From Sipunculus nudus (lineage: Eukaryota > Annelida > Sipuncula > Golfingiida > Sipunculidae): DNA of 64,000 nt. A program made the translations under genes and the position numbers. Shown here piece after piece: positions 1,246-55,388 of the stretch; the first letter of the stretch is position 1; the number at the start of each line of letters is the position of its first letter. Below the pieces are notes generated by a model. That model saw nothing but the letters and a program-made list of their open reading frames with translations. It made no database searches and was not told the DNA's origin. The stretch is taken from positions 39,313,558 through 39,377,557 of the forward strand of contig CM049310.1 of assembly GCA_026874595.1 (NCBI GenBank), written 5' to 3'.

Positions 1246-1467
1246 ATGCGATCTGAAGATGTTTTGTTGAGGCAATGTGTAATATTTACCTTGTTCGCAA
1301 GTATCAATGGTGAATTGATAGTTCTCAATGTGATCATTGCATGTTTGTTTGTGTGTGTGTGTTTGTGTGTGTGAGAGAGAGACATGTTTCAAGATTGATT
1401 GTAGTACGACTTCTAGATATAACAATATTGTTGAGAGGTGAAGAGGAAATGGAATGCAAATAGAAAG

Positions 1468-1538
<71 letters not shown>

Positions 1539-3439
1539 TCAATCAATCTGTGTAATCAGTCATTTCATGAAATGCCTATACATTTAGCCATTTTGCGTAA
1601 TGCCTGTGGCCATCAGTATTTAGGTGAAATGACTAACATTTTGAGTCATTTCATGAAATGACTGAAAATGATGGGGTATAATTACACAGATTGTCTGACT
1701 GCAGATGATCAGGCAATTTGTGTATAATAGGTAAAACTGTGAGAATTGAGCAGATATTTGTCAGGAAGTTACTTAACCAGCTGGCCAATTGTTTCACAAC
1801 TGAGTTGGGGGATAATAGGATACCATCCACAATAGTCTAGTCATTTTACTTGATTTTAAGCAAAACCCGTAACAACATGCCTCACAAATGATTTCTGTTG
1901 TATTATGGCCAGAACGTTTTGGAGAATAATATATCAACAGTCGCAAAAAGTCCCATTTGGATAAAGTTATTTAATATTATGATTTTAATTGGCAAATAAA
2001 CTATAAGTTTTACTTTACTTATACATGCACATCGTCATATTAAACTTGGTCTTTACCCCTCTGATTGACAACTAATTTGATAGATCTGCTCATTGCGTGT
2101 CCATTGAATCTGACTGAGATATAAAATTAACCAATAATAACGATTTTAAGTCCATGTATATTAAAAGGGTAGGGCTCGACAATATTACTTTCCCTCTTGC
2201 CTGAGGGGTTGGGAATATTGTGATAAACAACTTGCCCCATTGTCTGAAAGATACAGTCCATGGGAATATCACAAACAGGATAAATCATATCGAAATAGTA
2301 GTAAATTATGTTTTTATATCACAATATGTATCGTGAGGAATATAGGCTTATCGGCATCAGAGGATATTTAACATTTAAATGGTGTTCAACCCTATTTAAA
2401 TAAGGAGCAATAAAATATGTGAAACCTTGCTAATTCGCCCCTTAAATAAAAAACTGTGTGTTGTACCAACTTTAACAACTTGGCTGGTGAATGCATAATA
2501 AAATTAAAGTTATATTAAAAGTCTTATAAAATACGTCATTCGTGATACGTCATAATGATCATAATGGTAAGCATAAATTATTACGTCACAATTGTAAAAA
2601 AAATTAAGGCATGTAACTGGGTTTACATCCAATGTTAGCTTATTGAAACAGAGAGTGGTCTTAATCTGTTTATGTATAGCTGTGCGTCATTAGCAAGTCA
2701 CGCAAAATTCGCATCATTATAATCCAAAACAGAACAAAAGCCAAATTCCAAAGAATGCTAGGATTTTCTCACTGCTTGCCGACGTCAGCACAAGCATAGA
2801 ACACAATATCCTGTACGTGAAGACAGATCTCATAAGTAAGGAATGATTATAATAGCTAATTTATAGAATATTTACTACTTATAAATAATTCAAGTACACA
2901 ATTTTGTTAGGCTCTTACTTTTGGCTGTTACCAACAGGGATCGGCATTAACAGAAAAGAAAAACTCCCCTGACGACTAGTAAAGCTAAAAAAGATGTAAT
3001 CCACAAAACGTTATTTATTCAGTGATAAATTAAAAATATGAAGGCCAGCTCGATTAATTGAATGCATCTGTCCTGTCGCATAGCTGAATTAAATAAATAT
3101 TATAGATATATTTAAGGCATCACAACATATACCAATCATGTAAATGGAAATTAACTGGATATGAGTAACTGGTTTGAAATATTGCGTCGCATGCAGCCAA
3201 CAGAATGGTGGACAGACACACTAAGATCTGGCATGTATTATATTTGCAATTGTTTGCTTAATTGAATGTATCCTTTCATATAACTCTTGGGATCATCACC
3301 ATTTTCCCTCTTATTTTAAAATTAAGTTGTTTCAGGACACAAATTATTACACAATGCAAGGTAAATTATATTGTTTAATAGACTTTTAATTCAGTTAATA
3401 AATAAAGCATGTTTTATCACATTTTGTCTTCACTTTCTA

Positions 3440-3507
<68 letters not shown>

Positions 3508-4846
3508 TGTGTGTTATATATATTTCAAGGATGCACCCGCTGTGTTTGCTATACACCATGGTGGTTTCTTTTTTAAATAAAACACCGGCATTTTAATCTA
3601 CACGTAATAAAGCGCTATATACTTTTCGTGCCTGAATTTAATATCTAAATTGAAATATAACTGACTGTGCGATTGAAAAAAGCGATATATGTAAGAAAAA
3701 TTATAAGTATGTGCACTAATAATATGATGTTTGCCGTTGATTTTAGGTCTTCCAAGGGTCTCGACAGGATCCATCAGTCTCAGAGCACCATTAGACAACA
3801 CTCCAGAGGTACTCGGCAGAAACAGAAGCCTCCAGTTCGAACATCTTGGATTTTGTCACAGAGTATACAGGCATAGATATTTAAGAGAAGGTCTCTATAT
3901 GAGCTCTCGAACTACAAATAAAACATGTAATCAACGAAGTCCAACGAGCTGGTTCATTTATACTTCCTTCGTTGACAGAGCGTATAGGTTGGGTATTCAT
4001 TTTACATCTAATAATGCCTTAATATACCTATCGCTTGGACGAGGAGAGAACGGAAGCTATATTCACACATTCATGGCCTTGCCAGGTAGGAAGATATATT
4101 TATACTTTTCTGCTATATGCCTATTTTTATACATCTTCATGATTGTTTTTCTAAAGGCTACTGTATATACTACGGTGTCTCGGTTAAGCACAACAATTCG
4201 CATTTTCATGACAGTCAGACAGAGACATTTAATGTTGTTACCTTAATACAGTTTCAGAAGCCAAGACGGGAAAACGGAGGCTCTTAAAAACGTCAACTGG
4301 TGATGCAAATGGTGAGCCAACATCCCGAGGAATCGTGGGTCTCATTATCAGCGGATTAACCATACTGGCAATCCTTCCATTTCTTCTTCTTCATGTCTGG
4401 AGGTTAGAATTTTATAAGTTTATATGGATGTGTCGATTTTTATATAATTTATACCGGTATACCAAAACTGGTATTATCTGTATGTCAGCTCTATTAAATC
4501 ATTTTTTTATCTAGTAGAACATTTACAGCTCAGGTAAAATATAAAATAAAACAATTAGAGGTAGTCATTTGCACCCTCTGAGCGTTTGAACTTGAACACA
4601 CACATTCAGTTTTTACTCAAATCTCATAGCTTGTTTAAAACTTACAGGCGCCAGATTAGACCATTGGAGGAACCATATTCCGAACTCATGCCAATGCAAG
4701 GGATAGACGGACCAACTGACGTAGATGAGAATGTGGATATAACAGATGATAGCCAATCAACCAGCGGTCAAGCAAACTTGGACCAATCGGCAATCGCTAC
4801 TGATCATATGACTTCCTCTGAGGATCATGAATCTGATTCAAAGTGA
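1246..4846 (+). CDS. Gene A: small type I membrane protein, unknown family
   Basis: Spliced model: 1246-1309, 3747-4085, 4252-4402, 4648-4846, giving 250 residues. All introns are GT-AG with phases 1, 1 and 2. Residues 1-21 are a signal peptide with hydrophobic core CVIFTLFASI. Residues 22-134 form an ectodomain coded by one symmetric exon, with Cys58, Cys82 and N-glycosylation sequons at 47, 79 and 123. A basic stalk (KTGKRR) leads to a transmembrane helix at about 161-184, then a tail opening with IRPLEEPY (188-195) and rich in Asp, Ser and Gln. The start is chosen because the ATG lies exactly 12 nt after an acceptor-like CAG in all three paralogues. Compared with gene C, a 1-nt shift near the end replaces the C-terminus and truncates it. 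No known domain is recognised. A cell-surface receptor role is inference from topology and ectodomain divergence. Confidence 0.68.
1471..1534. repeat. TA microsatellite
   Basis: About 32 uninterrupted TA units in intron 1 of gene A. The open frames reading it as Tyr-Ile repeats are artefacts. Confidence 0.95.
1544..1693. mobile_element. Short palindromic MITE in gene A intron 1
   Basis: The ends are inverted: CAATCTGTGTAAT at 1544 and ATTACACAGATTG ending at 1693. Internally, TCATTTCATGAAATG near 1560 is repeated near 1646 (itself palindromic). There is no coding capacity. It sits immediately beside the TA tract, as expected of an element that targets TA-rich DNA. The superfamily is not assigned. 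Confidence 0.7.
3443..3514. repeat. Compound TA/TG microsatellite
   Basis: A TA run of about 32 bp passes directly into a TG run of about 38 bp with one A interruption, in intron 1 of gene A. Confidence 0.95.
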
Positions 4847-5019
4847 TGATAATTTGGAGGTGTAAGGCTCTTGTTTGATGATATTCCTACTTATTAACAG
4901 GGATATAAAAGCATCTGTTTACAGAAAAGCATAACTCACAGCCACTGGCCGCAACTGCTTGCCAAAATCAATAAGCACCACGTATGTAGTCGTCATTGTT
5001 TTATACATTCCCGAGATAT

Positions 5020-7230
5020 AACTAACTCACTCACTCACTGGACTCTTAGGTACCGGAATGTACTTAACGCCGTCACATTCCCTTTCCACTGCTCTCGGTC
5101 CTGTGCTTTTGTGGTGATGATATTCCATGTCATCTTTAGATCCTTTATGTCCTTGTCCACTCTTCGCTTCCAAGTCTCCTTGGGTCTGCCATGGCTCCTC
5201 TTTCACGTCGGTATCCGGTATACTTATTATTCAGCATATAAAAATTTATACATAATATTCAGCTACTCTGGAAATTGCTCCTTGCTCCATCCAGTATACA
5301 TGAACTATCTATTTGCTCCTTGCTCTAACCTCTGCCACTACTTATCTTGTGCCTGTACTCTGTCTCAGTCCTCATTGCTGATCTTCTTATGCCATCGAAT
5401 GCCTAGTTAACACAGCAGGCCCTAATTTTGAAATGCATCCAGTTTTTTAGTGATCTTGTTTGTCATTTTCTGTTGTACCGATGTTCTTTGCTCTCCAGAT
5501 CTTCTTTAGGATTGCAAATGCGTACATGACTTTCCCCATTCTGGCCTTAACGTCTTTCTTTGCATCCCCATCCTTGGCGACTCTGCTACCAAGATTGTCA
5601 AAAGCCTCTACCTCATCTAGTGGCTCATTTTCAACCTTTATTGTTTCCTAAACCTTGCTGTTAAGCATCACAACATTGCTCTTCTTTTAGAGGGTAGCCC
5701 AACATTATCCACATTGTCTAGGCCTTCAAGAGTTGTTTTTATAGACCATCTAATGCCACTTTTCTTTCCTTTGGTCGTATCTTTCAAAATCATCGCCAGG
5801 ATAAAGAGGACTGTTGACAGCAAGCACCCTTGCTTCACGCCAGTTGTCACCTTAAAACTGTCCAACTTGATGTTTCCACATACTACCCTGCACTGCTGTA
5901 CAACATTTTCACCAGGTTGACTACTTTATGTGGAATACTATGGTACCTCTGAATTTTCCAGAGAGAGTCCTTGTAGATGCTGTCGAATGCTTTTTCAAAA
6001 TATATGAAGTTTACGTAGACTGTGCTGTTCCATTCGACACTTTGTTCCAGGATTTAACGCAACGTGAAGATCTGGTCGGTACATGATTTGATTCTGCAAA
6101 ATATCTTGTGTTATACTGGGAGAAGTGTTATGCCGCACCAGTTGTTACAGTCCGCAAGAACGCCTTTCTTAGGGAGGTTTATTATAAGACCTGTTTCTCA
6201 GTCCTTTTGCATCTCTTCTTTTCCCATATCCTAACTAGCATAGAATGCAGCATGAGAACCTTTGCCTCGCCTTTCGGTTTTATCATTTCTGCACAAATAC
6301 CCTCTTCTTTTGGTGCCCTTCCACTTCCAAGAGCTTTGATTGCTTTTCTCTTTTCTCCTACCAAAATGTTGCCGAACTCTATGTCTAAATTTTCTTCTGC
6401 TTCTGAGTTTTCTTTGTTTCTGTAGGATCTAGTCTGTTTAGTATGGGACTGAAGTACTCCCTCCATTTGTCAAGTTTCTCCTTTTCTCCCTCATGATCTT
6501 TCCTTCTTTGTCCATTCCTGTTGGTACTGGTTCTTGCCGGATAGCCTCTTGGTAATTTTTGTACAAATTCTTCATATCCTTACTCCTCGCTGCTTCTTCG
6601 GCTTTTCTAGTGATAACCTTGATGAAGTTCCCCTCCTTCTAGGCACTATTCTTGACCTTTTTGTCCTTTACTCTGTGTCCTTTATCTAGTCTCTCTTTCA
6701 GACGGGGGGGGGGGTTACTTTACTTTCAAGAGTTTCTTCTTTATCTCCTTCCTTTTGCTGATTTTGCTCAATGTTCCGGGTGATATCCATTTATTTTTGT
6801 CTTTTTCTATAGCCAAGGACTGCTCCCTTCATAGCCTGGTGGAAATCTGCTATTGTGGTGTCCCCGATTGTGTATCTAATACACTGAACCTGTTCCGCAG
6901 CATCACACTGCAAACTCTTACCTTGGATTTAAACCTTTCCGTATCAGACTTCTCAGCCTTATTCTTTCCGATCCTCACACTCCTCAACTTCAAACCAACT
7001 TCTGCCACTACTAAGTTGTGGTTGCTGCCGACATCAGCCTCTCTCTTCACCTGCACATCTCTTAGGGAGCGCCTCCACTTCAAGGTGAGTTTGTTCACCC
7101 GTTTGTATATGAATACACTTCCTTCTATAATGAGCATAACTCCACAAACCGCTCTTTGTGGGTTTTCTCTCTGTCCCTCTGTCTGTCTGTCCATCGTTCA
7201 GGTTTTCGTTTCCGTGCAATAACTTTCCTA
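5020..7230 (-). pseudogene. Decayed non-LTR retrotransposon (LINE) on the minus strand
   Basis: Read on the minus strand, pieces of a LINE polyprotein appear in order. At 7194-6850 there is an endonuclease C-terminal segment with VGSNHNLVVAEV, a decayed SDHH-type motif. At 6466-6182 lies the reverse-transcriptase entry region (KAIKALGSGRAP...GICAEMIK). At 5865-5668 is the RT segment with TTGVKQGCLLS...LFILAM. The terminal Arg/Lys-rich region with GRPKETW-like sequence lies near 5210-5050. Frames are broken by indels and stops, and the catalytic YADD-type box is degraded (GLDNVDNVGL). A poly-G run interrupts near 6705. It is an inactive remnant, probably of an RTE-like clade, though that assignment is uncertain. 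It lies about 170 bp downstream of gene A, tail to tail. Confidence 0.8.
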
Positions 7231-8152
7231 AATTTTATCCGATTCTATTCAAATTCGGGTCAGTGATTGTTCTCATGCTTACCTTGGTTGGGATTGGTTT
7301 GAGAGTGACTGTCTCTCAAGATAATAATAAAATATGACATTTCATTTTTATATGATGAATCAGCACATATAGTTTTACTAATCACCCACAGGTGGCGCTA
7401 GCGGTGGACATAAAATTCTGAATTTTTCGCAGTAACTGCTAGATGCTGCTATTTTTTTTATCGTGGTTAAAACTATTTGTACTTGGTCACCACAGACTTT
7501 AAAAAACATCCTGGACTTGAAGGCGGAAGGGAGGGACATAAATTCCTTGAATTTGCTGGTTTCACATGATTCAATTGTGTCTCAAGTCATGCATTCTGAT
7601 AAGAGCCCGCAAGCCGAGTTAGGATCAAGCCGAGCCGAGTTTTATCACTAGGCGTCGTCGATATTTTATCAAGCCGAAGTGAGCCGATTTTGTGCAGCTC
7701 AGTAGGACGAGATAAAAAATAAAACAAAAAGATAATCTTTAACACTTAAATATTGCCCGAAACAAATGTTCAGGTTTTGTTATTTTTTTTTTGTTTCCTG
7801 TCGCTGAAAGGAAAAATTTGTGATTGTTTAAGTGTGAAAGTGTTGGCTCATGAAACCATCAGGATTAACTATGCTCGATATTTAATCATAAACGTGTTAA
7901 ATGTAAATTGAATGTAATATGTCACCCGTAATACAGATAACTTATTTAAATACAAAGGGTACTTCGTAACTTCGTCAAATGAATAGGCTTTCAGGTCAGT
8001 TTAAGCCCAGCCGATTTGCATGATATATGGAGGGAAACTCATCCAAACCTACTAGATGTAAACACAGACCATATTCCGTATTTTCAAGATTAGACTATTA
8101 TCACTGTGACTTATTTTATCACACACGCAAGAAATAGTCCATGGGCTAGGAG
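7231..8152. other. No gene recognised
   Basis: AT-rich sequence. A cluster of GAGCCGAG/CAAGCCGAG motifs lies near 7613-7700. There is no convincing open frame or element boundary. Confidence 0.45.
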
Positions 8153-9108
8153 GGGTATTTTACGAGGTCAGACATTCAACAAACGTGCGGAGGGATTTAC
8201 TAATATGCTGATATTTACGAGGTCAGACATTCAACACACGTGCGGAGGGATTTACTAATATGCTTATATTTACGAGGTCAGACATTCAACAATCGTGCGG
8301 AGGGATTACTAATATGCTGATATTTACGAGGTAAGACATTCAACACACGTGCGGAGGGAATTACTGATATGCTGATATTTACGAGGTCAGAAATTCAACA
8401 CACGTGCGGAGGGATTTACTCATATGCTGATATTTACGAGGTCAGACATTCAACACACGTGCGGAGGGATTTACTCATATGCTGATATTTACCAGGTCAC
8501 ACATTCAACACACGTGCGGAGGGATTTACTAATATGCTGATATTTACCAGGTCACACATTCAACACACGTGCGGAGGGATTTACTTATATGCTTATATTT
8601 ACGAGGTCAGACATTCAACACATGTGCGGAGGGATTTACTAATATGCTTATATTTACGAGGTCAGACATTCAACACACGTGCGGAGGGATTTACTAATAT
8701 GCTTTTATTTACGAGGTCAGTCATTCAACAAACGTGCGGAGGGATTTACTAATATGCTGATATTTACGAGGTCAGACATTCAACACACGTGCGGAGGGAT
8801 TTACTAATATGCTTATATTTACGAGGTCAGACATTCAACAAACGTGCGGAGGGATTTACTAATATGCTTATATTTACGAGGTCAGACATTCAACACACGT
8901 GCGGAGGGATTTACTAATATGCTTATATTTACGAGGTCAGACATTCAACACACGTGCGGAGGGATTTACTAATATGCTTATATTTACGAGGTCAGTCATT
9001 CAACAAACATGCGGAGGGATTTACTAATATGCTTATATTTACGAGGTCAGACATTCAACACACGTGCGGAGGGATTTACTCATATGCTGATATTTACGAG
9101 GTCAGATT
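8153..9108. repeat. 55-bp satellite, about 17 copies
   Basis: The unit runs TTTACGAGGTCAGACATTCA, then ACACACGTGCGGAGGGATTT, then ACTAATATGCTKATA. About 17 head-to-tail copies are highly similar, differing mainly at CACACG/CAAACG, GATA/TATA and CTAAT/CTCAT. Most units carry a CACGTG palindrome. Short open frames inside it simply read the repeat. Confidence 0.93.
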
Positions 9109-15007: not shown

Positions 15008-15271
15008 ATACATGTCTTATATATTACTTATTTTCTCATTTCTCATGAAACATTTTCATGTTGCCCAATTGGCATTTTATGTAAAATGTTATTCACGCGA
15101 CCACCCCTGTAGATTTAATAGTCGAAAGTTGACAGATTAATAAATAATAACATCTTTAAAGTTTTGTTGTCTGTAGCTCAAAGATAAACATTATAAACAT
15201 GTAATATCGGTATACGCGTGGGTTTAAAGATTTATCGTGTTCCTCATATATATACACATGTTTGCCATGGA

Positions 15272-15274
<3 letters not shown>

Positions 15275-15327
<53 letters not shown>
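15275..15327. repeat. TA microsatellite
   Basis: About 26 uninterrupted TA units. Confidence 0.95.
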
Positions 15328-15330
<3 letters not shown>

Positions 15331-25025: not shown

Positions 25026-25595
25026 CAATCTAGCTTGCTTGTGGATTTTATCCGGTTTTTATCAGTCTAGCTTGCTTATGGATCATTTCTGTTTTTTTTT
25101 TCAATTCAGCTTGCTTATGGATATTACCTGGGTTTTGTCTGTCCAGCTTTCATATGGATCTTATCAGGATTTTGTCAGTGTAAATTTGCTTATGGCTTTT
25201 ATCTTGTTTTGTTAATCTAGCTAGCTTGTGGATTATTTCCTGTTTTTTTTTTGTCAATTCAGCTTGATAATGGATCCTAGCTGTGTTTTGTAAGTCCAAT
25301 TTTCAATATGGATATTATCTGGTTTTCTTCAATCTATACTTGCTCATCAATCTTATCAGGTTTTGTCAGAGTTCTGCCGATCTAGCTTGCTTGTGATCAT
25401 TTCTGCTTTTGTCCATCCAGCTCGCATTTGGACCTAATCTGTTTTTTGTTAATCTATAGCTTCTTGTGGGTCATTTCTGATTTTTTTCAATCCAGATTGC
25501 TTAAGGATCTTAACTGGTTTTGGCAATCTTAACTTGCTTATTGAATTTTATTTTTTTTTTAATTTAACTTGTTTATCGATCTTATCTGGTCTTGT

Positions 25596-27310
25596 TTATC
25601 TAGCATGCTTATAGATCTTGTCTGGTTGTGTTTGTCTAGCTTGCTTTTGGGTCTTGTCTGTTTTTGTTAATCTAGCTTGGTAATATATCTTATCTGGTTT
25701 TCTTAATCTAGCTTTCCTATGGATCTTCACTGGTTTTGTTAATCTAGCTTGTTTATGGGTCTTCACTGGTTTTGTTAATCTAGCTTGTTTATGGGTCTTC
25801 ACTGGTTTTGTTGATCTAGCTTGTTTATGGGTCTTCACTGGTTTTGTTGATCTAGCTTGTTTATGGGTCTTCACTGGTTTTGTTGATCTAGCTTGCTTAT
25901 GGGTCTTCACTGGTTTTGTTGATCTAGCTTGCTTATGGGTCTTCACTGGTTTTGTTAATCTAGCTTGCTTATGGGCCTTCTCTGGTTTTGTTAATCTAGC
26001 TTGCTTATGGGCCTTCACTGGTTTTGTTAATCTAGCTTGCTTATGGGCCTTCACTGGTTTTGTTAATCTAGCTTGCTTATGGGCCTTCACTGGTTTTGTT
26101 AATCTAGCTTGCTTATGGCTCTTCACTGGTTTTGTTAATCTAGCTTGCTTATGGCTCTTCATTGGTTTTGTTAATCTAGCTTGCTTATGGCTCTTCACTG
26201 GTTTTGTTAATCTAGCTTGCTTATGGCTCTTCACTGGTTTTGTTAATCTAGCTTGCTTATGGCTCTTCACTGGTTTTGTTAATCTAGCTTGCTTATGGCT
26301 CTTCACTGGTTTTGTTAATCTAGCTTGCTTATGGCTCTTCACTGGTTTTGTTAATCTAGCTTGCTTATGGCTCTTCACTGGTTTTGTTAATCTAGCTTGC
26401 TTATGGCTCTTCACTGGTTTTGTTAATCTAGCTTGCTTATGGCTCTTCACTGGTTTTGATCATCTAGCTTGCTTATGGCTCTTCACTGGTTTTGATAATC
26501 TAGCTGCTCATGGCTCTTCACTGGTTTTGTTAATCTAGCTTGCTCATGGCTCTTCACTGGTTTTGTTAATCTAGCTTGCTCATGGCTCTTCACTGGTTTT
26601 GTTAATCAAGCTTGCTCATGGGTCTTCACTGGTTTTGTTAATCTAGCTTGCTCATGGGTCTTCACTGGTTTTGTTAATCTAGCTTGCTCATGGGTCTTCA
26701 CTGGTTTTGTTGATCTAGCTTGCTCATGGGTCTTCACTGGTTTTGTTGATCTAGCTTGCTCATGGGTCTTCACTGGTTTTGTTGATCTAGCTTGCTCATG
26801 GGTCTTCACTGGTTTTGTTGATCTAGCTTGCTCATGGGTCTTCACTGGTTTTGTTGATCTAGCTTGCTCATGGGTCTTCACTGGTTTTGTTGATCTAGCT
26901 TGCTCATGGGTCTTCACTGGTTTTGTTGATCTAGCTTGCTCATGGGTCTTCACTGGTTTTGTTGATCTAGCTTGCTCATGGGTCTTCACTGGTTTTGTTA
27001 ATCTAGCTTGCTTATGGCTCTTCACTGGTTTTGTTAATCTAGCTTGCTTATGGCTCTTCACTGGTTTTGTTAATCTAGCTTGCTTATGGCTCTTCACTGG
27101 TTTTGTTAATCTAGCTTGCTCATGGCTCTTCACTGGTTTTGTTAATCTAGCTTGCTTATGGCTCTTCACTGGTTTTGTTAATCTAGCTTGCTTATGGCTC
27201 TTCACTGGTTTTGTTAATCTAGCTTGCTTATGGATCTTCACTGGTTTTGTTAATCTAGCTTGCTTATGGATCTTCACTGGTTTTGTTAATCAAGCTTGCT
27301 TATAGATCTT
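25596..27310. repeat. 36-bp minisatellite core, about 47 units
   Basis: The unit is TCTAGCTTGCTTATGGCTCT followed by TCACTGGTTTTGTTAA. Higher-order blocks are visible: GGGTCTTC units with GTTGATC, GGCTCTTC units with GTTAATC, and TGCTCATGG units at about 26505-26995. Because 36 is divisible by three, the minus strand reads as open frames of 284 and 223 codons with a 12-residue period (KSHKQARLTKPV). These lack a start context, splice structure or composition change and are judged artefactual. Confidence 0.93.
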
Positions 27311-27435
27311 ATCTGGCTTTTGTCGGACATCTGTACTCTGTTCGGTCATTGGTATAACCATCTTTAAGGGATTTCATTTCAACACAGTTTTCTATTGTTT
27401 ATAAACAGTTGTTCATTTTTCAGATCCAGAGGGCC

Positions 27436-28210
27436 ATGCAAGCTCACGGGACTTTGGTGCGAAAATGTATCCTGCTGGCAGCTTTCACAAGCATTACTGG
27501 TATATAAGTATTTTCAACATGATCAATGTATATTTTTTTTTCGTGAGAGTAGGAGAAAATGTGATAGTGTTCAGTTGGATAGTCGCCTTGAAATACCACT
27601 TCTGTTTAAAGGGTGTGAAGGTGATATGAATTCCCCGTCCTCTTCGCCAATGGGGCTTCTCTCTAAAAAAATATCTCACACACACATATGCAACCATTCA
27701 TGTAATAACTAATATAAACACTAAAGTGTTTTTGACTTAACTTATAAAAATGATGATGAATAAATGATGATGTCTGGCAATATTCATGAAAATAAACATT
27801 AAGCTAAAACATTCCAGGAACAAGTACACGTGCAAAAAACTAGATGCCAATGGGTCACGACGCTAAGCTGCTGTTTATAAGGAAAATTTTTAAAAACTAC
27901 AAAAGAGGATGTTATTTTTTTTTTTACCTCAAATAAACAGGGTTCTTCCTTTATTACAGGTTATGTGTATACATATGAAAGATGGAAGGTTGGGTATTAC
28001 AAGGTTTGGCTTAAAATGTGTCTACCGTGTTTTTGAAGATGGGTTTCTGTGACCTTTATTAACCTTTGACATTGTTATCTCAAAACAAAAGGGTTTTTTC
28101 TCCAATCAGAAGGTGATCATTATGTAAAAGATTTGGGATGAACATTTAGCTACAAATGTGTCCGAGGATTTCAAGAATGGGTTCCTATGACCTTGACCTT
28201 GTGACCTCAA

Positions 28211-28259
<49 letters not shown>

Positions 28260-31081
28260 TATATCATTTCTTTTCCTTCGACAGGTCTAACAATCATCGA
28301 GATCGGCTCGTGCAAGTCCAATTTCGTAAACGACACGACTGTGATTCTTGTAAAAGCAAGAGGCCACCAGATGGCGCATCTTGGCTGTGGCTGCACGGCT
28401 TACGTCAATGGTTTCCTCAGCGCAGATTTCAACGTAAGCTTCGCAACAACAGACAAATCATGTGATGAACAAATTTCAATGACCTGTAACGGAGAAACCG
28501 GCTTCCAGTCTTGCTCCAGCTTGGACAGTAACGTTTCACAGACATACGGCATATCGAATGTTCCATGTAACATGAGCATAAATTACACATGGCGGGGGCA
28601 AGGAAGGAATCGAGGATACGTCCACACTATCTTACAAGGTAAAAATTGATTTTTAGAATCACACGTTCTTATAAGATACATGCGAGGCCACATCTACATT
28701 ATCTAATCAGCAAATGAATCTTAGATATGTTTCATTGTCCGTTACACTTTTTAAGTAATCTTTCTTTCGGAAAAGACTACAATATAGTCTGACACTTGTC
28801 GGACAGACAGGCACTAAAATTCGTGTTAAGAGTCCCAGGACACTAACATGAATCGTGCTTCTCCTCAATCATTATAAAAGACAGGCTTCACTACAAAATG
28901 TTAGTGGAGTCAGTAAGTTTGAAAAGAATCCAGATCTTGCTAATGCACAAAAATAAAGAAACCCATCCATATGCAACTTGGCAGAACAGGACGGTGTGTC
29001 GGCATATTTCTGTCTCTTCCTTGTTACGAGCTTCAAGCTTACAGTATCAGATTCCTCCGCCTGAGGTCAGTGTTCATGGTGACTGGTAATCTTTGGGACA
29101 CAGGCGTACATATTATAGGTTGGTGACTTTTTAATTATCTTATACACGGTATCCTTTGAACTTCTTGGTTAATTTCCTGATCAGTCAACCGAGTACAAAA
29201 CACAAGGTTTTATACCTACGTTCGCCGCATTAAGTTCATGTATAAAATGCAAAGTTTGTGCATGGATTGCTGTTTTGCACATGCAATTTTACCCTTATAA
29301 ATTCTGAAACTAAAATATAGTTTTTCTCCCCAGGAAATCGAAGCATGTTTATTTTGCTTATATCCCAGTTCTCGCTCGATTATTAATGAACCCTAATGAA
29401 CCTTGCCTATCACTCTCACACCTGTATAAGTGTGCGTATGCCCACCATGCGTGTCTTGTAAACCTCACATAATATACCATACCCAGTCTATACTTTATCT
29501 TAGATCATACCAAATATATACAGGATCAAAATCTTGATAAGGCCGGCTGAAGGTATTGTTCGCAGCCAACCAGTTTTCACCGAAACCACTGAATGCTTTA
29601 CCCCATGTAACTTCTCTACAGTCTCTTGAATAGAACTTTTCCACGTTCACTGCCTGTAACGATTTTCGGCAATGTTTGGTTCAAATTGGAAAATCAAATA
29701 CAAATCGGTAAGAATACTCCGGTAAGAATATCGCCATTAAATCTAAGGTATTATTATTATTATTATTATTAATCATCTTAGATATAACAAAATATGATCT
29801 TTTTTTTTTTTTGCTATAACGCACCCGATCACTCAGTGTCAATGGTTGCCGGTAGATATCGCAACTTTGGTGTGAAAGGTTTATTGCTTCGACAATCAGA
29901 CGATCTGCCGGATATACGAATACAGCGTATACACGTTGAATTATGTTCCACTGGGTAATTTTAACTGCTTTGTGACAACAGGGAGCAGGGCTGTGAGGGT
30001 AATTTGCAGACCAACAAGTAAGAAGGCCTCGGGTCAGCTTTCATCAGGGACTGTCGTGGTCCTCATCATCAGTGGAATAAGCATTTTGGTCATCGTCACA
30101 GTCGTCGCTCTTCACTTGTGGAGGTGAGAAGAGTGGGTCACATGGTGCTTCTATAATAAAATAATGATACTCGGTCACTGTAATGGAAACTGCTCTGGAA
30201 TCAGATGCAGATCCAAGGGGGTCCGGAACAACCCCCCCCCCCCCCTATCTTTTTTTCAAGTTTTAAGACTATTTTTAAGGCCTAGACTCTCTCTTTTCCT
30301 GACTAGTTCATTTTGATTTAGGTTTAGGTATTAGTTCTCCAGGATTAGACCTCTCCTTTTTTTTCGAAATCCTCGATAAATCCCTGGGAATTCATATTCA
30401 GATGATATTTAGTCCCGAATGTACAGGTATTTACCCCGTTAAATATTTTCTACCCCTTATAACTCAAATGTCCTAATAACTATGTTAGACCAAAAGCTTG
30501 CCATTTTAACAAGTGTGAAGTGTTAAGTGCAGCTCCTTAAACCTTTGGTCCAAGAAACATGAATACAAAATTTAATATAATCTCTTTATAAGGAAGGGAC
30601 TATACTTGACACGGTGTATATATTTTCAATTAAGGGTCCAGTTACTTTGCAAAACCATGAACTTTTATTAAAGTGTTATTCAAATTTTAATGCAATCAAC
30701 TGTAACAATAGTTTTAATTTAAAGATGTGATTATTTCGTGGACTGTCTCTGTGGTTTGTCTTTCTCTATGCATGATGTATAAATGTGTGTATTAACAGAA
30801 TATGTAGCAGTCCAACATCCTTGTGTGCTTACACTATTTGTTAGCGCACACATGTAAACAAAATATTTCTACAAATTATCACTTTGTTTTAACTTTAAAG
30901 GCGCCGGATAAGACCGCTGGAAGAACCGTATTCCCCACTCGATGTAGATACAACCAATGACCAATCAGACAGCGGCCAAACAGGCGCTGACCAATCACCG
31001 AGTCCTTCTGGTCAACCAGTGACTGGAACTTCGAATGAGGAGAATGGAACTGTTGATGACCATCTTATATTACAGGACTAA
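27436..31081 (+). CDS. Gene B: small type I membrane protein, paralogue of gene A
   Basis: Spliced model: 27436-27499, 28285-28638, 29982-30123, 30901-31081, giving 246 residues. All introns are GT-AG with phases 1, 1 and 2, identical to gene A. Residues 1-21 are a signal peptide (core CILLAAFTSI). Residues 22-139 are the ectodomain, with Cys31, 56, 58, 81, 89, 98 and 116 and sequons at 37, 71, 104, 117 and 121. Cys148 in the stalk makes eight cysteines, an even number suited to disulfides. The transmembrane helix is at about 163-186, preceded by KKASGQ. The tail opens with IRPLEEPY (190-197) and continues rich in Gln, Ser, Asp and Gly. Residues 53-81 (HLG...C) align without gaps to gene A 54-82. 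AATAAA follows at 31271. The family is not recognised; Ig-like or CUB-like folds are possible but unsupported. Confidence 0.75.
28217..28262. repeat. TA microsatellite in gene B intron 1
   Basis: About 40 bp of TA just upstream of the ectodomain exon. It is preceded by TGACCTTGACCTTGTGACCT-type repeat sequence (about 28020-28215). Confidence 0.9.
28639..29981 (+). other. Intron 2 of gene B
   Basis: The donor is GTAAAA and the acceptor TTTGTGACAACAG. Sequence at 29876-29981 is also open in the transmembrane-exon frame and holds three cysteines, but no AG in that stretch other than 29980-29981 gives the phase 1 entry needed. It is therefore left in the intron, with an extended exon as the alternative. 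An ATT trinucleotide run lies at 29750-29770. Confidence 0.5.
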
Positions 31082-34345: not shown

Positions 34346-34584
34346 GAATTGTTTCTTGTTCAATAATAAAATCCTGGCTAAATGCCGATTCTCTCCCAGA
34401 CCAAGGAATGCTCTCAATCAATGATAGATTTACTTACTCCTATAGACCACTTATACTCGGTTATATGTAAGTTTCTTATCAAATTATCATATCTTTGAAA
34501 AAAAGCTAACCGCCTATTCCAGATATATCTTTAACATTACGTATTCCTTTATCCAATCAAAAACGATGAAAATGATTTTTAAAA

Positions 34585-35605
34585 CAATGACTGGTGTAAT
34601 ATAACACAATATAACAATGACTAATGTAATATAACACAATATAACAATGACTAATGTAATATAACACAATATAACAATGACTAATGTAATATACCACAAT
34701 AAAACAATGACTAATGTAATATAACCTAATATAACAATGACTAATGTAATATAACACAATATAACAACGACTAATGTAATATAACACAATATAACAACGA
34801 CTAATGTAATATAACACAATATAACAACGACTAATGTAATATAACACAATATAACAACGACTAATGTAAAATAACACAATATAACAACGACTAATGTAAT
34901 ATAACATAATATAACAACGACTAATGTTATATAACACAATATAACAATGACTAATGTAATATAACACAATGTAACAACGACTAATGTAATATAACACAAT
35001 ATAACAACGACTAATGTTATATAACACAATATAACAACGACTAATGTAATATAACACAATATAACAACGACTAATGTAATATAACACAATATAACAACGA
35101 CTAATGTAATATAACACAATATAACAACGACTAATGTAATATAACACAATATAACAACGACTAATGTTATATAACACAATATAACAATGACTAATGTAAT
35201 ATAACACAATATAACAACGACTAATGTAATATAACACAATATAACAACGACTAATGTAATATAACACAATATAACAACGACTAATGTAATATAACACAAT
35301 ATGACAATGACAAATGTTATATAACACAATATAACAATGACTAATGTAATTTAACACAATAAAACAATGACTAATGTGATATAACCAAATATAACAATGA
35401 CTAATGTAATATAACACAATAACAATGACTAATGTAATATAACCCAATATAACAAGGACTAATGCAATATAACACAATATAACAATGACTAATGTAATAT
35501 AACACAATGTAACAATGATTTATGTAATATAACACAATATAACAATGACTAATGTAACATAACACAATATAAAAATGACTGACGCAATATAATACACTAT
35601 AGCAC
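34585..35605. repeat. 30-bp AT-rich satellite, about 34 copies
   Basis: The unit is AATGACTAATGTAATATAAC plus ACAATATAAC, repeated with AATGA/AACGA and GTAAT/GTTAT variants. Copies from 34621 to 35400 hold register almost perfectly; the ends are more diverged, with small deletions near 35420. The 30-bp period opens three minus-strand frames of up to 316 codons with ten-residue repeats (CYITLVVVIL). These are artefacts. Confidence 0.93.
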
Positions 35606-38080: not shown

Positions 38081-38134
<54 letters not shown>

Positions 38135-38152: not shown

Positions 38153-38299
38153 TCATACTTGAAAACAAATTAAAATTTTGTAATAAACTTTTCATGTAAA
38201 TGTGAAAAAAAATTGTATTAATTGGTCCGGGGTTTCTCGTGACTGGTGCCGGGTGCCCTTCACTCTGGCTCGGGACCAAAAAAAAAACATTCAATATAA

Positions 38300-39127: not shown

Positions 39128-39132
39128 CAGAA

Positions 39133-41546: not shown

Positions 41547-41754
41547 GACATATCGGCCGCCGTCGACATCGGCCGCCGGCCTCAAATGGACCATATCGGC
41601 CGCCGGCGCCCAGCGGGACGCAATATCGGCCGCCAGCTGCAATTGCCCACAGGCCTGTATTAACTCTGTCAAGTCAACCATATCGGCCGCGGAAAGAACT
41701 AGGCTACCATATCGGCCGCCGCTTCCTCATTATACGTTTCATTAGATAATCTAT

Positions 41755-41822
<68 letters not shown>

Positions 41823-42022
41823 TGTAATATATATTTTTTTATTCAGTGTGACCACGAGCATTTTGCAAACGTTTTCAACTCCACCTCAAACACGCACAAA
41901 CTCCCAATCGGAAAAACGACAAATTACAGTAAATACACATTTATTAACAGAAATGACATTAACCATTACAAACACTGACCAAAACTACTGCATGATAAAA
42001 GCATCACAGCAACATCTCAATA

Positions 42023-42074
<52 letters not shown>

Positions 42075-42223
42075 TAATACTTCTACGCTAAAATCCAACC
42101 CAATAAAATCTAACTAAAACGTGTGAACAAAAGAAAAACTTGGTACTAATATTTACAAAGAATATTTACAAAAAAATGTAACAATATACATGGAAAACAT
42201 TAATCTCATTTAAATCCAAGGAA

Positions 42224-42293
<70 letters not shown>

Positions 42294-43443
42294 CTAACTA
42301 AAACAAACTTACTAATACGCATCATCATCACCTCTACATAAAACTAATATAAAAGCACATGAGAAAAAAAGATATCACAGCGAATATTTATACATGTATC
42401 TCACAAGATTAAAAAATATAAGAAAAACAATAGCTCAGGCGATCACTTGCTGGTCCTCTTGCTGCTGCGGCTCGTCCGCGGGTTGCAGACTTGGTTTTGG
42501 GCAAACCAATTTGCTACCAGCAGCCAAGAGAGAGGTTGCGCTCCGCTCCCCATCCCCATACTCTCTACATAAAGCAAAGAGTCGATTGTTTACGTCACGG
42601 CTTCTGTGTGACAATATCCTGGAGACTTGCTCCCTTGACACTAGTTCGGCTGTCATATTCACAACCTGTGCCTCCTTGTGCAGCAACTTGACCAAACGGC
42701 CAATTCCCTTTCTTCCAGTGCTGAGGGTTCGTGGAAGGAACCGAGGTCTTCTGCGTACAGACTGGCGTCCTGTGCCTGTGTTTCCTCTGGGGCTGCATTA
42801 ACTGCTTCCTCCGGGGCTTCCTCCACGGGTTCGGGCTGATGCATTTCTATGGGGGCTGTAGTAGTTGCTTCCTCCGGGGTCTCGTCTACAGGTTCGGTCT
42901 GAAGCAGATCTAGGGGGGGGGGGGCAGTAGTTGCTTCCTCTGGGGTCTCGTCTACAGGTTCAGGTTGTTGTTCTTTACCTTCGGCGGAATTCTCGGCTGG
43001 CGATGTCGCCATCTGTCGGCAAGGCTGGCACATCCATTCAAGCCACCCTTCTCTGGTCGCCTCTTCATATTCCACAACTGACACTCCTGTATTACACTTG
43101 AGGTGCTGCCAACCATCACAGCAGTCACACTGGAGGGCGTTTTATTCAATATTATCTATCTGGAAGATAACCCGATGTATACTTGCATAATTAGTATGTT
43201 TATATATATATATAATTTATATAATTTATATAATTTATATAATTTATAATTTCGAAATACATTAATATATTTTTATATAAAATAAATTCATGGTAAGCCT
43301 TGATTTATTATATTCGCTTTATTTGGAAGATAAGTCGGTGATTTGGTTTATAAATTTATTTACATTTTTATTATAATGCTTTAGTAGGCCTATTTATGTA
43401 GGTATGTGTATATATATATATTTATACATACATTATATATACA

Positions 43444-43510
<67 letters not shown>

Positions 43511-43723
43511 AGACTATAGATTATCCAATGAAACGTATAATGAGGAGGCGGCGGCCGATATGGTAGCCTAGTTCTTTCCGCGGCCGATATGGTTGACTTG
43601 ACAGAGTTAATACAGGCCTGTGGGCAATTGCAGCTGGCGGCCGATATTGCGTCCCGCTGGGCGCCGGCGGCCGATATGGTCCATTTGAGGCCGGCCGCCG
43701 ATGTCGACGGCAGCCGATATGTC
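41547..43723. mobile_element. 2.18-kb inverted-repeat element with CGGCCG iterons
   Basis: The outer 200 bp at each end are near-identical inverted repeats beginning GACATATCGGC. Each holds about six copies of ATATCGGCCGCC or close variants. Each arm then continues into a CT/GA microsatellite (41758-41819 and 43448-43505) and CATATTGTA, so the arms span about 280 bp. The interior carries a PHD-finger-like frame on the minus strand, TA tracts at 42028-42073 and 42227-42292, and no recognisable transposase. Flanks GGTTTAGG and TGTTGAGA match only partly, so the TSD is unproven. Likely a non-autonomous DNA transposon; MULE-like is possible from length of the repeats. Confidence 0.8.
42435..43141 (-). 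pseudogene. PHD-finger fragment with acidic repeats, frame-shifted
   Basis: On the minus strand the frame 43141-42659 reads QCDCCDGWQHLKC ... WMCQPC, the second half of a PHD zinc finger (C-x2-C-x4-H-x2-C ... W-x-C-x2-C). The first Cys pair is missing upstream of a stop, although CGCCCTCCAG just before TGTGAC could be a splice acceptor. The finger is followed by three units of about 21 residues starting EPV[DE]E[TA]PEEA, acidic and Pro-rich. A second frame, 42695-42435, continues with LVKLLHKEAQVVNM...SREQVSRILSH. The two are joined either by a frameshift or by splicing at CCACGAACCCTCAG near 42720. It lies wholly inside the inverted-repeat element. PHD fingers occur in transposon proteins of marine invertebrates, so it is probably element cargo or a remnant, not a host gene. 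Confidence 0.6.
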
Positions 43724-45157: not shown

Positions 45158-45206
<49 letters not shown>

Positions 45207-48214: not shown

Positions 48215-48268
<54 letters not shown>

Positions 48269-49159: not shown

Positions 49160-49242
<83 letters not shown>

Positions 49243-50059
49243 ATCAATATCATCAAAATGAGTGTGATAGTGTTTTAATCAAGTATGCTTCCCAGTTATT
49301 ACGTTACCCTCATTATCATGAGGTAAACTCCGACCGTACCTTCTGATGTAACATTGTTACTAATTGAAACTTGGCTGTGTGTTGTTCATCAGGTGTGACA
49401 TGTATAAGGATTCATACATGCGGTGACTGTTGATCATAAAAATCACAATGCCAAAATTAAAGGGACATAATTAGGAGCAATATGATGCCTGTTCTTTCAC
49501 ACTATTTCAGTATTGTTTTATACAGAAGTTTCCCAACAAAACCCTCCGTGCCTTCACATGGGCTCAGTACCTCCCTTTCAGTTTGTTATGGTTCTGCGTG
49601 TGAGTAAACACGGTCTGAGTGTGACACTTTACCATAAAAGGCCGCGGGACTGGATGTCCGATTTTGTGCATGCGCGACAGATCCCAACAAGGAGTAGTCC
49701 AAACTAGTTCATACATACATCGTCATGTCCTCTATATCTTTTGTTGGATGGTATTACGGTTCATGGGCCGATTATAAATTTATTGTGAACCAGCCCAGGA
49801 GGGTCAACTGAAATGACATACTAAACACAGTGAGATCCGGTGTATTTGGTCCATGAGTCACGGCACCACGTAACAGCGGGAACATGTATTAATTTACATT
49901 TCTTAGGGTAAAATCAGTCAGGGCATCTCTTGGTTGACAGGCGCTGTGGCCTGAACATCAACATGAATGTTTATGACAACATTAATTGTTAGCCTGAAAA
50001 AAAAACGGGCAACGGATTTGGCGTTGGCGCTATGTTTATATTGGCACCAGTGACCGTTT
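46887..50059. other. No gene; two TA tracts and a poly-G tract
   Basis: CGGCAA-type short repeats lie near 47070-47140 (TCGGCAA[ACG] variants). Poly-G at 47584-47600. TA microsatellite at 48219-48262. TA microsatellite of about 75 bp at 49165-49241. CCATTCCTCAATCCTGGCTA near 48318 resembles the sequence near 36738-36762, so it is part of a dispersed element. No protein gene found. Confidence 0.45.
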
Positions 50060-52205
50060 TTTTTAGCTCAGCTGACTGAAAGTCATCTGAGCTATAGCGA
50101 TCACTCTTTGTCCGTCGTCCGTCTGTCCGTCTGTCCGTTAACCAAACACAAATAGTAACCGCAGGATTTAGAACCTTGTAACTTGGGATTCTGGGAGGTC
50201 CATGAAAAATCTCCTTGGAAACCAGAAATTAGGTCTCTGTTACCCATATCCTTCGAGCTATAGGGCCCCAAAGTACCCCCCCCCCCCCCAGAAAAGTAAA
50301 AAAAAATTCATACAAAAACTTCAATATCTCATTAACTACTTGACTGATGGTCATGATTTTTGGCATACATATTGATCATTAGATGTTCCATCACTTCCTG
50401 CAGACTGGTGGCGCCAGATGTATTTTTAGATTTTTTACGAATTTTTTTCTCTATTTTTGAGACCTTTAAATATAAGAACATCTGTTAACAAGGCACAAAT
50501 CGTAAAGACTGGACCTAAAATCTTAATTCTTGACACACTGAGAGGTCCATGAAAAATCTTCTTGGAAACCTGAAATAATGTCTCTGTTACCCATATCCTT
50601 TGAGCTGTGGGGGGCTCCCAATAACCCCCCAGAATAATGGAAAATTTGATAAAAACAAACTGCAACATCTCAATAACTACAACACTGATGGTCATGATTT
50701 TTGGCATACGTATTGATCAAGAGGTGTTCCATCAGTTATTGCAGACTGGTAGCGCCACCTGTATTTTTTCAAATTTTCACAATTTTTTTTCTCTATTTTT
50801 GAGACCTTTAAGGATGTAGTTATCTGTCAACAGGGTACAAATCGTAACGACTGGACCTAGAATCTTCATTCTTGACACACAGGGAGACCCATGATAAGTC
50901 TACATGGAATTCTGATATTAGGTCTCTGTTACCCATAACCTTTGAGCTATGGCACTCCAAAGTACAGCTCAGAATAATGGAAAATTTGATACAAAAGCTG
51001 AAGTATCTGAACAGCTAATGCAGAGATCACCATAATTGTTTGCATGGATATTGATCATGGAGTGTTTCATCAGTTTCTGCAGACTGGTGGCACCACCTGT
51101 ATTTGTTCGGGTGTTTTTTACGAAATTTTCTATATTTTTGAGACCTTTAAAGATATGAACATATCTTTACCGGGTTCCTCCGCCGCCACCACGTTCATTT
51201 CCAGAGAGCTCCTCTGAGACTAATGGACCGATTTTTTCCGAAACTTACACCAATTATCGGGTCACATGTGAACTGGTGCCTAACCAATTTGCGTTGACGT
51301 CTGACCTTTCCTCTCTATCCAGCGTCCATTAGTGCGTCTGTTTCCACTCTCATATCTCGTGAACCGTTTGACCGATCAGGAAATAAAATTTATACAAATG
51401 TAGCCCTTGCTTTATAACATACACAAAAAATGGTGGCGACACCTGTAACCATGTTTGCACAGTGTCCATCTGTTCATCTGCCTTGGGTTAAAATCACTCA
51501 TATCTCTGCAGTTAATTGACTAATTCACCTGAAATTCGGCATGTGTATACATCCAGGATAGCTTTCTTGATTTTATGAACGGTGGCGCCACCTACATTCT
51601 AGTTAACGCTGCACACATCCAAGCTCATATCTCAGGAACAATTTGACCGATTGGACCAAAATTGTGCATATGTTTAGATCTCACATAGGTCTTTATCATA
51701 CACAAAACTCGAGGGGCCACCTGCAACCATTTTTGCACAGCGTCTGTCTGTTTGTCTGCCGTGGGCTAAAATCACTCATATACATGTAGCTGTTTGACTT
51801 TTCTGCCTAAAATTTTGCATATGTATACAACTTGGACAGCTTTCTGGATTTGTTGTAGGTGGCACAACCTACATACACATTTAGGCTGTAGACATCCATG
51901 CTAATATGCAACATACCTCACTCTATTTCCCCTTGCCACCAATCAATGCCTCACTTCACCCGTTCCACTCTGATTTTGGCGGGTACACGTAGTCACTTGT
52001 CGGCTTGCCCGTATTCTAGTTTTTAAAGTTTACACATTTTTTCTCTATTTTTGAGATATATAAATACAGACTAAATCTTGGCCTGTTGGTTAATCTGTTT
52101 GACGCTTCAGTTGAATGGGTATATACTACCATTCTGATGATAAAATTTCCTTTTGCGAATCTCTTCCCAGTCAGCTGAGCGTCATGACCCATGGGTCACT
52201 TGTTA
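50060..52205 (+). repeat. Dispersed repeat family, 2.1-kb plus-strand member with ~340-bp internal repeats
   Basis: It begins TTAGCTCAGCTGACTGAAAG and ends near CAGCTGAGCGTCATGACCCA TGGGTCAC; both ends are found inverted at 10390-11545. Inside, a unit of about 340 bp is repeated about three times. Landmarks are CAGACTGGTGGCGCC near 50400, CAGACTGGTAGCGCC near 50742 and CAGACTGGTGGCACC near 51079, each followed by TTTTTCTCTATTTTTGAGACC or a variant. A second repeat type with ATTTTGCATATGTATAC and GGTGGCGCCACC fills 51330-51900. No coding capacity. Confidence 0.7.
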
Positions 52206-52599
52206 TACTCACGTACAGAATTTTAAGCCAACGGTGTCAGGGTATTATTGTGACAGGTACCATTTTATTTCGGAGAGAAGACGAAAATTTAAGTGTTCAT
52301 TTATCATTCTTTCATCTTTCATTCATTAGGTCCCTTAAACAATTTTTCTGAGTCTACTATAAAAAATAGCCTTACTCCAGGTAAGAATTAATATAAATAA
52401 AACCTCCCTTTTTACCCTTGTACATGGTTGTAATATCTAAAATAGGGCTATATTAAGGTTCATTGAGTGAAGAGTCCGGGAAGCTCGGGTCAAAATTTGA
52501 GAGCGTCACTACGGAATATAGCGCAACCCAATGGGAGGTGATCTGTAATAAATGTTGGAGGGTTTGGATAAAATTTAAAATGTTCGTATCATTACATGA
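52206..52599. other. No gene recognised upstream of the gene C duplication block
   Basis: Short overlapping open frames on both strands (52453-52705) run into the duplicated block and have no domain. Confidence 0.4.
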
Positions 52600-53011
52600 T
52601 AAGATATCGCCAGGTAGTTGGCGATGGTCAGTGTCTGCTTCAAAAGCCAACTTTGATCTTCTCGGTCTCAGTCAGAATTTCCTGTTGGACGCTTCGTCCC
52701 CATAACCGAGTGTCCCAATAGAAATTTCGAGCGTCACAAATGCTTACACTGTACTTGCATTCTTGAAAGCTGTGATTGTTTGTTCTTTCACCATCCTTGT
52801 TCTTTGTTGCTAAGCGATAATTGCACCTGTAATGGTTCCTACTATATTTGAAAGTATAGGAAATAGAGAGCGTATATAGCTAATTATAATATAGAATTTG
52901 ATCAAAACCAGGCTCTATAAACTCCACTGAATTCCCTCCCGCATGTGCATAATGTGTGTACATATCATGATGTGTTTTACTATTTCAACGTGTTTTCCTC
53001 TCTTCTTTCAG
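52600..53011 (+). promoter_or_regulatory. Upstream block of gene C, duplicated from or with gene A
   Basis: Matches 793-1233 in order. A TATAAA at 52917-52922 sits in the shared CCAGGCTCTATAAACT. The pyrimidine tract and CTTTCAG at 53004-53011 precede the signal exon exactly as in gene A. No poly-C tract is present here. Confidence 0.5.
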
Positions 53012-53296
53012 AAACTTGAAGTCATGGAATCTGAAGATATTTTGTTGAGACGACGTGATATATTTATTTTGTTTGCAAGTATCTGTTGTAAGTTTATAGT
53101 TCCTAATGTGATCAATGCACGTTTTTTTCTGTGTGTGTGTGTGTGTGTGTGCAGTACATACATGTGTGTGTGTTTGTGTAAAAGAGAGAGAGAAAATTGC
53201 ATCAAGATTGTTTGTAGAACGACTTTTAGATGGAACAATATCGTTTAGAATAGGAAATGGGAACGTGGAATAGGGTTGCAAATAAAAAGTGATATA

Positions 53297-54224
53297 CAGA
53301 AGAACGCCTGCTAACGGCCACGCCTCAATAACGGCCAATACGTCTATAACGGTCAGATTTTCCGGTCCCGAATTTTCGACCGTTTTATTTCATAATCATT
53401 TTGTTGTCAATTACGGTCACTCATCTATTGCGTATTACGGCCAGGTCGCTCGGTCCCGCAGGCCGGGAAACGCCTCAATTACGGTCAGGTGCAGTGACTG
53501 CCTGACATAGGCTCAACTAATCGAGTGGCCACTTCTGACCTAAATATCATTACACAAGTGTCCGCTCTCACATATTCCTGTCTGTGCCTAAATAAAGGTA
53601 ACCACTCGACCGTGGCTGCATGAGTTGTTTGACACGTAGCCAGCGTCGTACCTCCCAACTCAGCCTCTTTAGTGTGCACAATGGTATAAGGCATGTGTCC
53701 CCACCTGCGTGTACGTTTGGCAATCAGTCGTGCGAGCCGGATCTTAATCAGGGTATTGGTCAATTAATTAACGAATGACAACCAGCGGGTCCCGATAAAT
53801 ACGTCATCAGAAAAACGCCAGGCGGTGGATCTTTAAACTCTCTTCATTGTCCTTGTGAACACGTACATCAAACGAAAACAGTGCGGCAAACATTGCACAA
53901 TTTACCCATACATGAATAATTATGAATGCAAAATAAACATTGTAACATGTATAAAATGTTACGCATACTCTGTCTAAATCACTTTGACCATTATGGCTAC
54001 CAATAAAAGACAATAAGTAAATATTTTATTCTTTTTATTGATAACAGTAATTATACAAATACTCTGTATATACGTTTATTTTGTTGATTGTATAAAGATT
54101 TGAACTTGGTTTCGTGTTACATTTTAAACCCCCTCTCCTGGTCAAGTCCTGTATCACGGCCACTCCTGTATTAAGGCCAAATTCATCAAGTCCCGATGGT
54201 GACCGTAATACAGGCGTTCTACTG
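53297..54224. mobile_element. 928-bp pogo/Tigger-like non-autonomous transposon in gene C
   Basis: The left end CAGAAGAACGCCTGCTAACG and the reverse-complemented right end CAGTAGAACGCCTGTATTAC are inverted repeats of about 28 bp, flanked by TA (53295-53296 and 54225-54226). CAGTAGAAC-type termini with TA duplication point to the Tc1/mariner-pogo group. Subterminal AACGGCCA/TTACGGTCA repeats occur at both ends. Open frames of 92 and 68 codons on the minus strand show no DDE transposase motifs. It sits about 210 bp after the gene C signal exon. Confidence 0.8.
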
Positions 54225-54659
54225 TATATATATATATATATATCATGCATGACCCACTGATACCTAAAATGTTGTAACACAGCCTATAGTTTCAGTAGCC
54301 CCTCCTAAGGCTGGGTATCTTGTGGGATAGGGTTGGCAAGCCAGAGGCCAGACTATTGAAGAGGGTGATGCGGAAAATTCATGTGCTCTTTAATGTATGA
54401 CATAGGGAACCTTGCTAGAGTTAGCATTTTCTTGACTGCATGGGTAAATAGTCAAGACCCCCAGTTCCTGTAGTTCAGGTTTTTCAGGCCTTCTTCAGAT
54501 AGAACCTGGACCCCAGTTATAATTATTATATTGTGTCATAAACTTACACGACGGTGACACTTTCAGTTTCATTACTGATGTATTATTGTTGTATTTGCTG
54601 TATCATTTTTAAATTCGTTAGCTATTATATATTCATTTTATTGCAGTTTTCATTCAGAT

Positions 54660-54880
54660 TTTCTGGCAGAGCCAATGGCAGAAAGATATTTTTTCTGGCG
54701 ACCTGGCAGCTGCCAGGGGACAGAGTTTTGGCAGCCTAGCAGTTGCCGGGATTGAGAATTTTGCCGGCCTGGGAGTTGAATGGCCGCCGAATTTTGACGC
54801 CCTGGGATTTGCCGGGGTGCAGAATTTCGCCGCCCGGGGAGTAGGATGTTCTGCCGTTGCAGCTGCCGCACAAAATCAAT
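54660..54880. repeat. Degenerate ~30-bp repeat abutting the gene C transmembrane exon
   Basis: Six or so imperfect units around GCCAGGGAACAGAATTTTG (forms such as TTGCCGGGATTGAGAATTTT and CCTGGGATTTGCCGG) of about 27-33 bp. The minus-strand open frame reads as LPGRQNS repeats and is considered a shadow. This repeat replaces sequence expected upstream of the exon by comparison with gene A. Confidence 0.6.
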
Positions 54881-55388
54881 TGCCGTAATGGCAGAGGGAG
54901 AAACTTGCCAACCGTGTCGTTGATGCAAATGGTCAGCCAACATCCCCAGGAATCGTGGTCCTCATTATCCGCGGATTATACATACTGGCAATCGTCCCAT
55001 TTCTTCCTTTTCTTCATGTCTGGAGGTAGGAATTTTATAAAGTTCACTAGGCTGTGTCGATCTTTATATAATTTCAATTATTACTCAAATCTTATAGCTT
55101 GTATATAATTTGCAGGCCCCCTATTAGACCATTGGAAGAACCATATCCCGAACCAATGCCTATGCAAGAAATTGACGGACCAACCGACATAGACGTTAAT
55201 ATGGATATATCAGATGTTGGCCAATCAATGAGCGACCAAGCAAGCTATGACCAATCAGCAGTCGCTTCTAGTCAACCCACTGAACACATGCCTTCCTCGG
55301 AGGATTATGAATCTACTCAAAGTGACAGTATTATACAGGTATAAGGGTCCTGTTTTGATGTTATACCTACTTACGACGAGAGATATAT

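Follow-up and report, generated by a model that had tools for sequence, protein, structure and literature searches.

Two intact genes, A and B, and a broken copy, C, lie on the plus strand of the window, by which we mean the whole 64,000-nucleotide stretch of the Sipunculus nudus genome analysed here (C5, positions 39,313,558-39,377,557; the searched genome comprises 1.43 Gb in 153 contigs). Protein searches revealed a further copy, D, outside the window and 10.4-14.2 kb 5' of its first base; it is intact, with 253 open codons and the tail IRPLEGPY. The features are collected in Table 1.

Gene models in the window and in the flanking copy

Splicing of the four exons leaves 250 uninterrupted codons in gene A and 246 in gene B, and the introns of both genes follow the phase order 1, 1, 2, as the preliminary description of this DNA, made from the sequence alone, had proposed; each of the six introns is of the GT-AG type. 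That description also assumed a common exon order at three loci, which fails at copy C: neither blastn nor tblastn found any trace of exon 2 between the remaining exons, and the 5' portion of exon 3 is missing. Copy C is a broken copy and not a third full gene. The 12-nt gap between an acceptor-like CAG and the ATG, claimed for three loci, was recovered at all three and also in D; given this spacing, a non-coding exon upstream of coding exon 1 is likely in A and B. Similarly, the tail motif said to unite the three loci proved specific to them: a degenerate pattern coding for IRPLEEPY has three matches in the 1.43-Gb genome, all within the window at A, B and C, and its reversed control has none.

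The intact genes are predicted to encode small, single-pass type I membrane proteins, with the signal peptide and the helix called from hydropathy peaks, and NxS/T sites lie N-terminal of the helix in both A (three) and B (five). Of the surface receptor or adhesion protein suggested previously, the type I anatomy therefore stands in this hydropathy-based form, and the role of receptor or adhesion molecule is a step that we infer.

Table 1. Features of the window and exons of copy D (window positions, except for copy D, which is given in C5 positions)
Feature	Position	Strand	Description
Gene A coding exon 1	1246..1309	+	signal-peptide-like, with start codon and phase 1 donor; ATG 12 nt 3' of an acceptor-like CAG
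Gene A exon 2	3747..4085	+	divergent ectodomain, most family cysteines gone, phase 1-1
Gene A exon 3	4252..4402	+	stalk and transmembrane helix, phase 2 donor
Gene A exon 4	4648..4846	+	acidic tail with IRPLEEPYSEL, stop
Tandem arrays	8159-9106 and 50191-51162		55-bp and 342-bp units
Minisatellite	25444-27323		36-bp unit, about 52 copies; long frames stay open on both strands owing to the unit length
Gene B coding exon 1	27436..27499	+	signal-peptide-like
Gene B exon 2	28285..28638	+	canonical family domain, phase 1-1
Gene B exon 3	29982..30123	+	transmembrane helix preceded by the last domain Cys (VRVIC) and a short stalk
Gene B exon 4	30901..31081	+	acidic tail IRPLEEPYSPL, stop
Tandem array	34583-35601		30-bp unit, 34 copies; long open frames on minus strand
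Transposon-like element	41547-43723		272-nt inverted repeats, 98% complementary, flanking a minus-strand PHD-finger-like frame
Copy C exon 1	53024..53087	+	A-like
Copy C exon 3, 3' remnant	54921..55025	+	A-like; helix region longer by one codon
Copy C exon 4	55116..55344	+	tail IRPLEEPYPEP
Copy D exons	C5:39299310-39299373, 39300555-39300908, 39302065-39302206, 39303005-39303206		spliced open frame

Apart from these genes, simple repeats and tandem arrays abound in the window, and the element bounded by inverted repeats looks like a DNA transposon; its PHD-like frame matches PF00628 at an E value of 0.0016, with 18.8 bits falling short of the cut-off of 24.

Duplication and constraint

Within a 114-kb stretch of C5 compared by blastn, D matches B in four blocks (75-84% identity, offsets 40.1-41.5 kb) and A matches C in three (77-87%, offsets 50.5-51.8 kb). 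The order on one strand is D, A, B, C, and this order together with the pairwise similarity indicates a duplicated two-gene block, so that the simplest reading would be one duplication of such a block followed by decay of copy C. Expansion of a tandem family by duplication, as previously proposed, is thereby borne out and is further upheld by homologous same-phase exons across the genome; what could not be seen from the window sequence is that its genes form a minor branch of a far more extensive family.

Comparison of B with D gave a dS of 0.19 and a dN of 0.078 (dN/dS 0.41; Fisher p 5.6e-4 from rounded counts). Constraint is strongest in exon 2, which encodes the outer domain (dN/dS 0.17; Fisher p 1.5e-4, again from rounded counts), and weaker elsewhere, with ratios of 1.07 in exon 1, which has few sites, and 0.52 in both exon 3 and exon 4. 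This pattern supports the view that B and D are real coding genes. In neutral simulations, in which indels were not counted, about 1% of 5000 runs remained stop-free at 0.2 changes per site and 7-14% did so at 0.08-0.1 changes per site; openness alone is thus weaker evidence for B and D. Taken together, the constraint, the intact copy D and the homologues elsewhere in the genome rule out a chance or artefactual origin of the gene models, in agreement with the earlier argument that the splice boundaries are unlikely to agree by accident.

A genome-wide family and the identity of its domain

A search with the ectodomain of gene B returned 36 rows at E<=10, namely 34 domain places and two other B exons, and a relative on C7 used as the query returned 44 rows at E<=1. 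The union amounts to 47 domain places, 31 of them found by both queries; when neighbours less than 200 kb apart are counted as a cluster, 41 places fall into seven clusters and six are single, distributed over C5, C6, C7, C9, C12 and C16. An E value of 0.001 or better was reached in at least one search by 17 of the 47 places, the queries' own places included, and for the other 30 the support consists of the alignment and the position in clusters. From the 47 places we built a 39-row alignment, leaving out eight (five not retrieved and three partial or degenerate), and from this a 28-row subset that excludes gene A, four rows without the conserved cysteines and six close copies.

In the numbering of B exon 2, Thr55 is invariant in the 39 rows, and C9, C34, C36, C59, E61, S77 and Y100 are present in at least 90% of them. 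Within the 28-row subset C76 does not vary; the invariance of its cysteines applies to that selection alone, from which rows lacking conserved cysteines had been left out. The best-scoring donor is in phase 1 for 38 of the 39 domain exons and the best-scoring acceptor for 35; the choice of domain ends, made before the phases were scored, had already taken phase 1 into account. Downstream, a [VIL]x[VI]xC strand followed by a helix was found at 14 of 21 loci, 13 of them clear and one (L066) unclear; at the other seven, no such exon was detected within the sequence scanned. An upstream signal-peptide-like exon with a phase-1 donor was present at 7 of the 18 loci scanned, and some of these may be chance occurrences; the scan is insensitive, because it missed the real first exons of B and D, which are within range but score below the donor threshold.

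A tree of the 39 rows groups them largely by cluster, as is expected of birth and death, with 11 of 36 inner branches strongly supported. Its longest end branch, 4.41, belongs to gene A, which keeps a single family cysteine (C59), and B and D keep the whole set. A search with gene A itself returned 64 rows, 11 of them in the array; the remaining 53, at E values of 1.3-6.9, were treated as chance matches. Most of them share one score and one stretch of the query and so look like copies of one repeat. Gene A may be a neofunctionalised member, a decaying one or a decoy. That the entire C5 array is a decaying cluster, in which receptor genes survive as remnants that no longer function, seems to us quite improbable: the broken copy C, the lost cysteines and long branch of gene A, and A/C dN/dS values of 0.63 in exon 1 and 0.50 in exon 4 would fit such decay, but B and D are intact and constrained in exon 2, and gene A is still open although stop-free neutral runs are so rare at 0.2 changes per site. 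The best reading is instead that the window genes carrying IRPLEEPY represent a short-tailed subgroup of a large, expanded family of predicted type I receptors.

The preliminary description had not recognised the family, and neither did the domain libraries. No Pfam family reached its cut-off in the spliced proteins, the match of gene B to DUF2561 (E 0.026) included. Among the domain exons, of which 19 and then all 39 were searched, 19 families matched, none of them above cut-off and none in more than two members; the best is DUF5884 (E 0.0031), and RIG-I_C-RD (E 0.012) is another example. PDB searches with the proteins and the family profile gave a single match, at E 2. No immunoglobulin domain was found: the only Pfam Ig match is to Ig_2 in one member of 39, with an E value of 1.1 and 10 bits against a cut-off of 27. 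An AlphaFold model of two window exons, made from two sequences, is mostly beta, at a pLDDT of 35 and hence without confidence.

A rival candidate is a very divergent CUB domain, in which case the family would consist of CUB receptors beyond the reach of Pfam. Both are extracellular domains of about 110 residues, and an hhalign comparison of the 28 family rows with 14 CUB rows from the same genome spans 92 columns at an E value of 0.0057 and keeps the four cysteine positions of CUB in register, at a probability of 6.4; with all 39 rows this probability falls to 3.4 and the E value rises to 0.013. After gaps had been stripped from the profiles, none of 300 column permutations reached the real score of 18.8 (best 18.0), and the reversed profile scored 9.3. 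In one member of the 39, L075, the CUB model matches at E 0.039, colinearly over profile positions 1-77, and another CUB model at E 0.064, but the 14.7 bits of this member against PF00431 are below the gathering cut-off of 21.4, and the unrelated DUF5884 and RIG-I_C-RD fit single members as well or better, which places the CUB match within noise. The domain closes with TGY or TGF in many family rows, a loose counterpart of the GF near the end of CUB. Unlike CUB, however, the family stays below every Pfam cut-off, has CxC in place of CxW, carries an extra cysteine in the next exon and lacks SPxYP, a motif seen in the CUB rows; furthermore, none of the 150 CUB matches listed, the strongest of 745 candidates in the genome, falls on a family place, as judged by eye. 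Because a single member supplies both weak CUB matches, and families without any relation to CUB do equally well, we hold a CUB origin to be possible but somewhat doubtful, and describe the domain as perhaps CUB-like without filing it as CUB. Dense arrays of true CUB exons occur away from the family places, at C1:50.67-50.92, C17:22.14-22.20 and C5:25.68-26.04 Mb.

These results point to an undescribed family of putative cell-surface receptors. Our literature search found no account of it in titles and abstract openings, a scope that is no proof of absence from print.

Cytoplasmic tails and possible functions

Tyrosine-bearing tails were predicted in 10 of 12 gene stretches, with exons called by script and by eye; the exceptions are L028 and L066. 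Motifs in the relatives include VYAEP (L011), IYAEP (L021), YAQ (L013) and YEEI (L018), and L014 has three SxYxxL motifs (SQYEEL, SQYEKL and SPYEEL). The ITIM consensus is [SIVL]xYxx[LIV], and YxxPhi in a cytoplasmic tail is a sorting signal. In L014 with L089 (C6:46.946 Mb), the predicted tail repeats YEELN-like units, three of which fit the ITIM consensus. The window genes and D have short tails of 60-67 residues with a membrane-near YxxPhi, namely YSEL in A, YSPL in B, and YSPL and YIPI in D; the tail of copy C reads YPEP and has lost it. None of the three intact tails conforms to a strict ITIM, position -2 being E or G (EPYSEL in A, EPYSPL in B, GPYSPL in D), and in the second motif of D, PEYIPI, the residue at -2 is P.

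We consider it probable, at roughly 0.7, that the tandem array encodes type I single-pass surface proteins forming a subgroup of the 47-place family. The predicted protein would comprise a signal peptide and one beta-rich, disulfide-bonded domain of about 115 residues, with six family cysteines, the last of them encoded in the transmembrane exon, and this would be followed by a short stalk, the helix and a short acidic tail bearing a single tyrosine about 11 residues past the helix (YSEL or YSPL). Displayed at the surface in this presumed form, the domain may bind an extracellular ligand on other cells or on microbes, and the tail tyrosine could serve in clathrin-adaptor sorting through YxxPhi, in SH2 docking once phosphorylated, or in both. 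Longer-tailed relatives with several tyrosines would be the stronger signallers. The same short tails and their YSEL, YSPL and YIPI motifs would also suit adhesion proteins or endocytic cargo, with a tail for sorting only and no receptor signalling; we rate this as credible but less probable than not, and against it stand the relatives with several tyrosine motifs, among them the SxYxxL-bearing L014.

Immune receptors with ITIM or ITAM tails, such as CEACAM and FCRL, are type I proteins expanded in tandem. The present family resembles them in its predicted topology, its tandem expansion and the tyrosine tails of several relatives, but no Ig domain was found in it and the window genes depart from the strict ITIM. 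Allorecognition loci, for example Botryllus fuhc and Hydractinia Alr, provide surface proteins from a gene cluster, and the family is likewise one of clustered genes for putative surface proteins. Botryllus fuhc is cited as an invertebrate allorecognition gene (PMC12065747). We speculate, as a rather unlikely proposal, that these genes make up a polygenic superfamily of recognition receptors that has not been described before. Its members would share a new six-cysteine domain and tyrosine tails, would be arranged in birth-and-death clusters on several chromosomes, and would serve immunity or allorecognition without being related to Ig receptors.

Such genes escape the domain library tried in this genome. 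If they are expressed on immune or epithelial cells, they would provide many candidate recognition receptors whose domain, exon structure and tail motifs are already defined, and the 39-row domain alignment offers a starting point for the search for orthologues and for analyses of the age and variability of the family.
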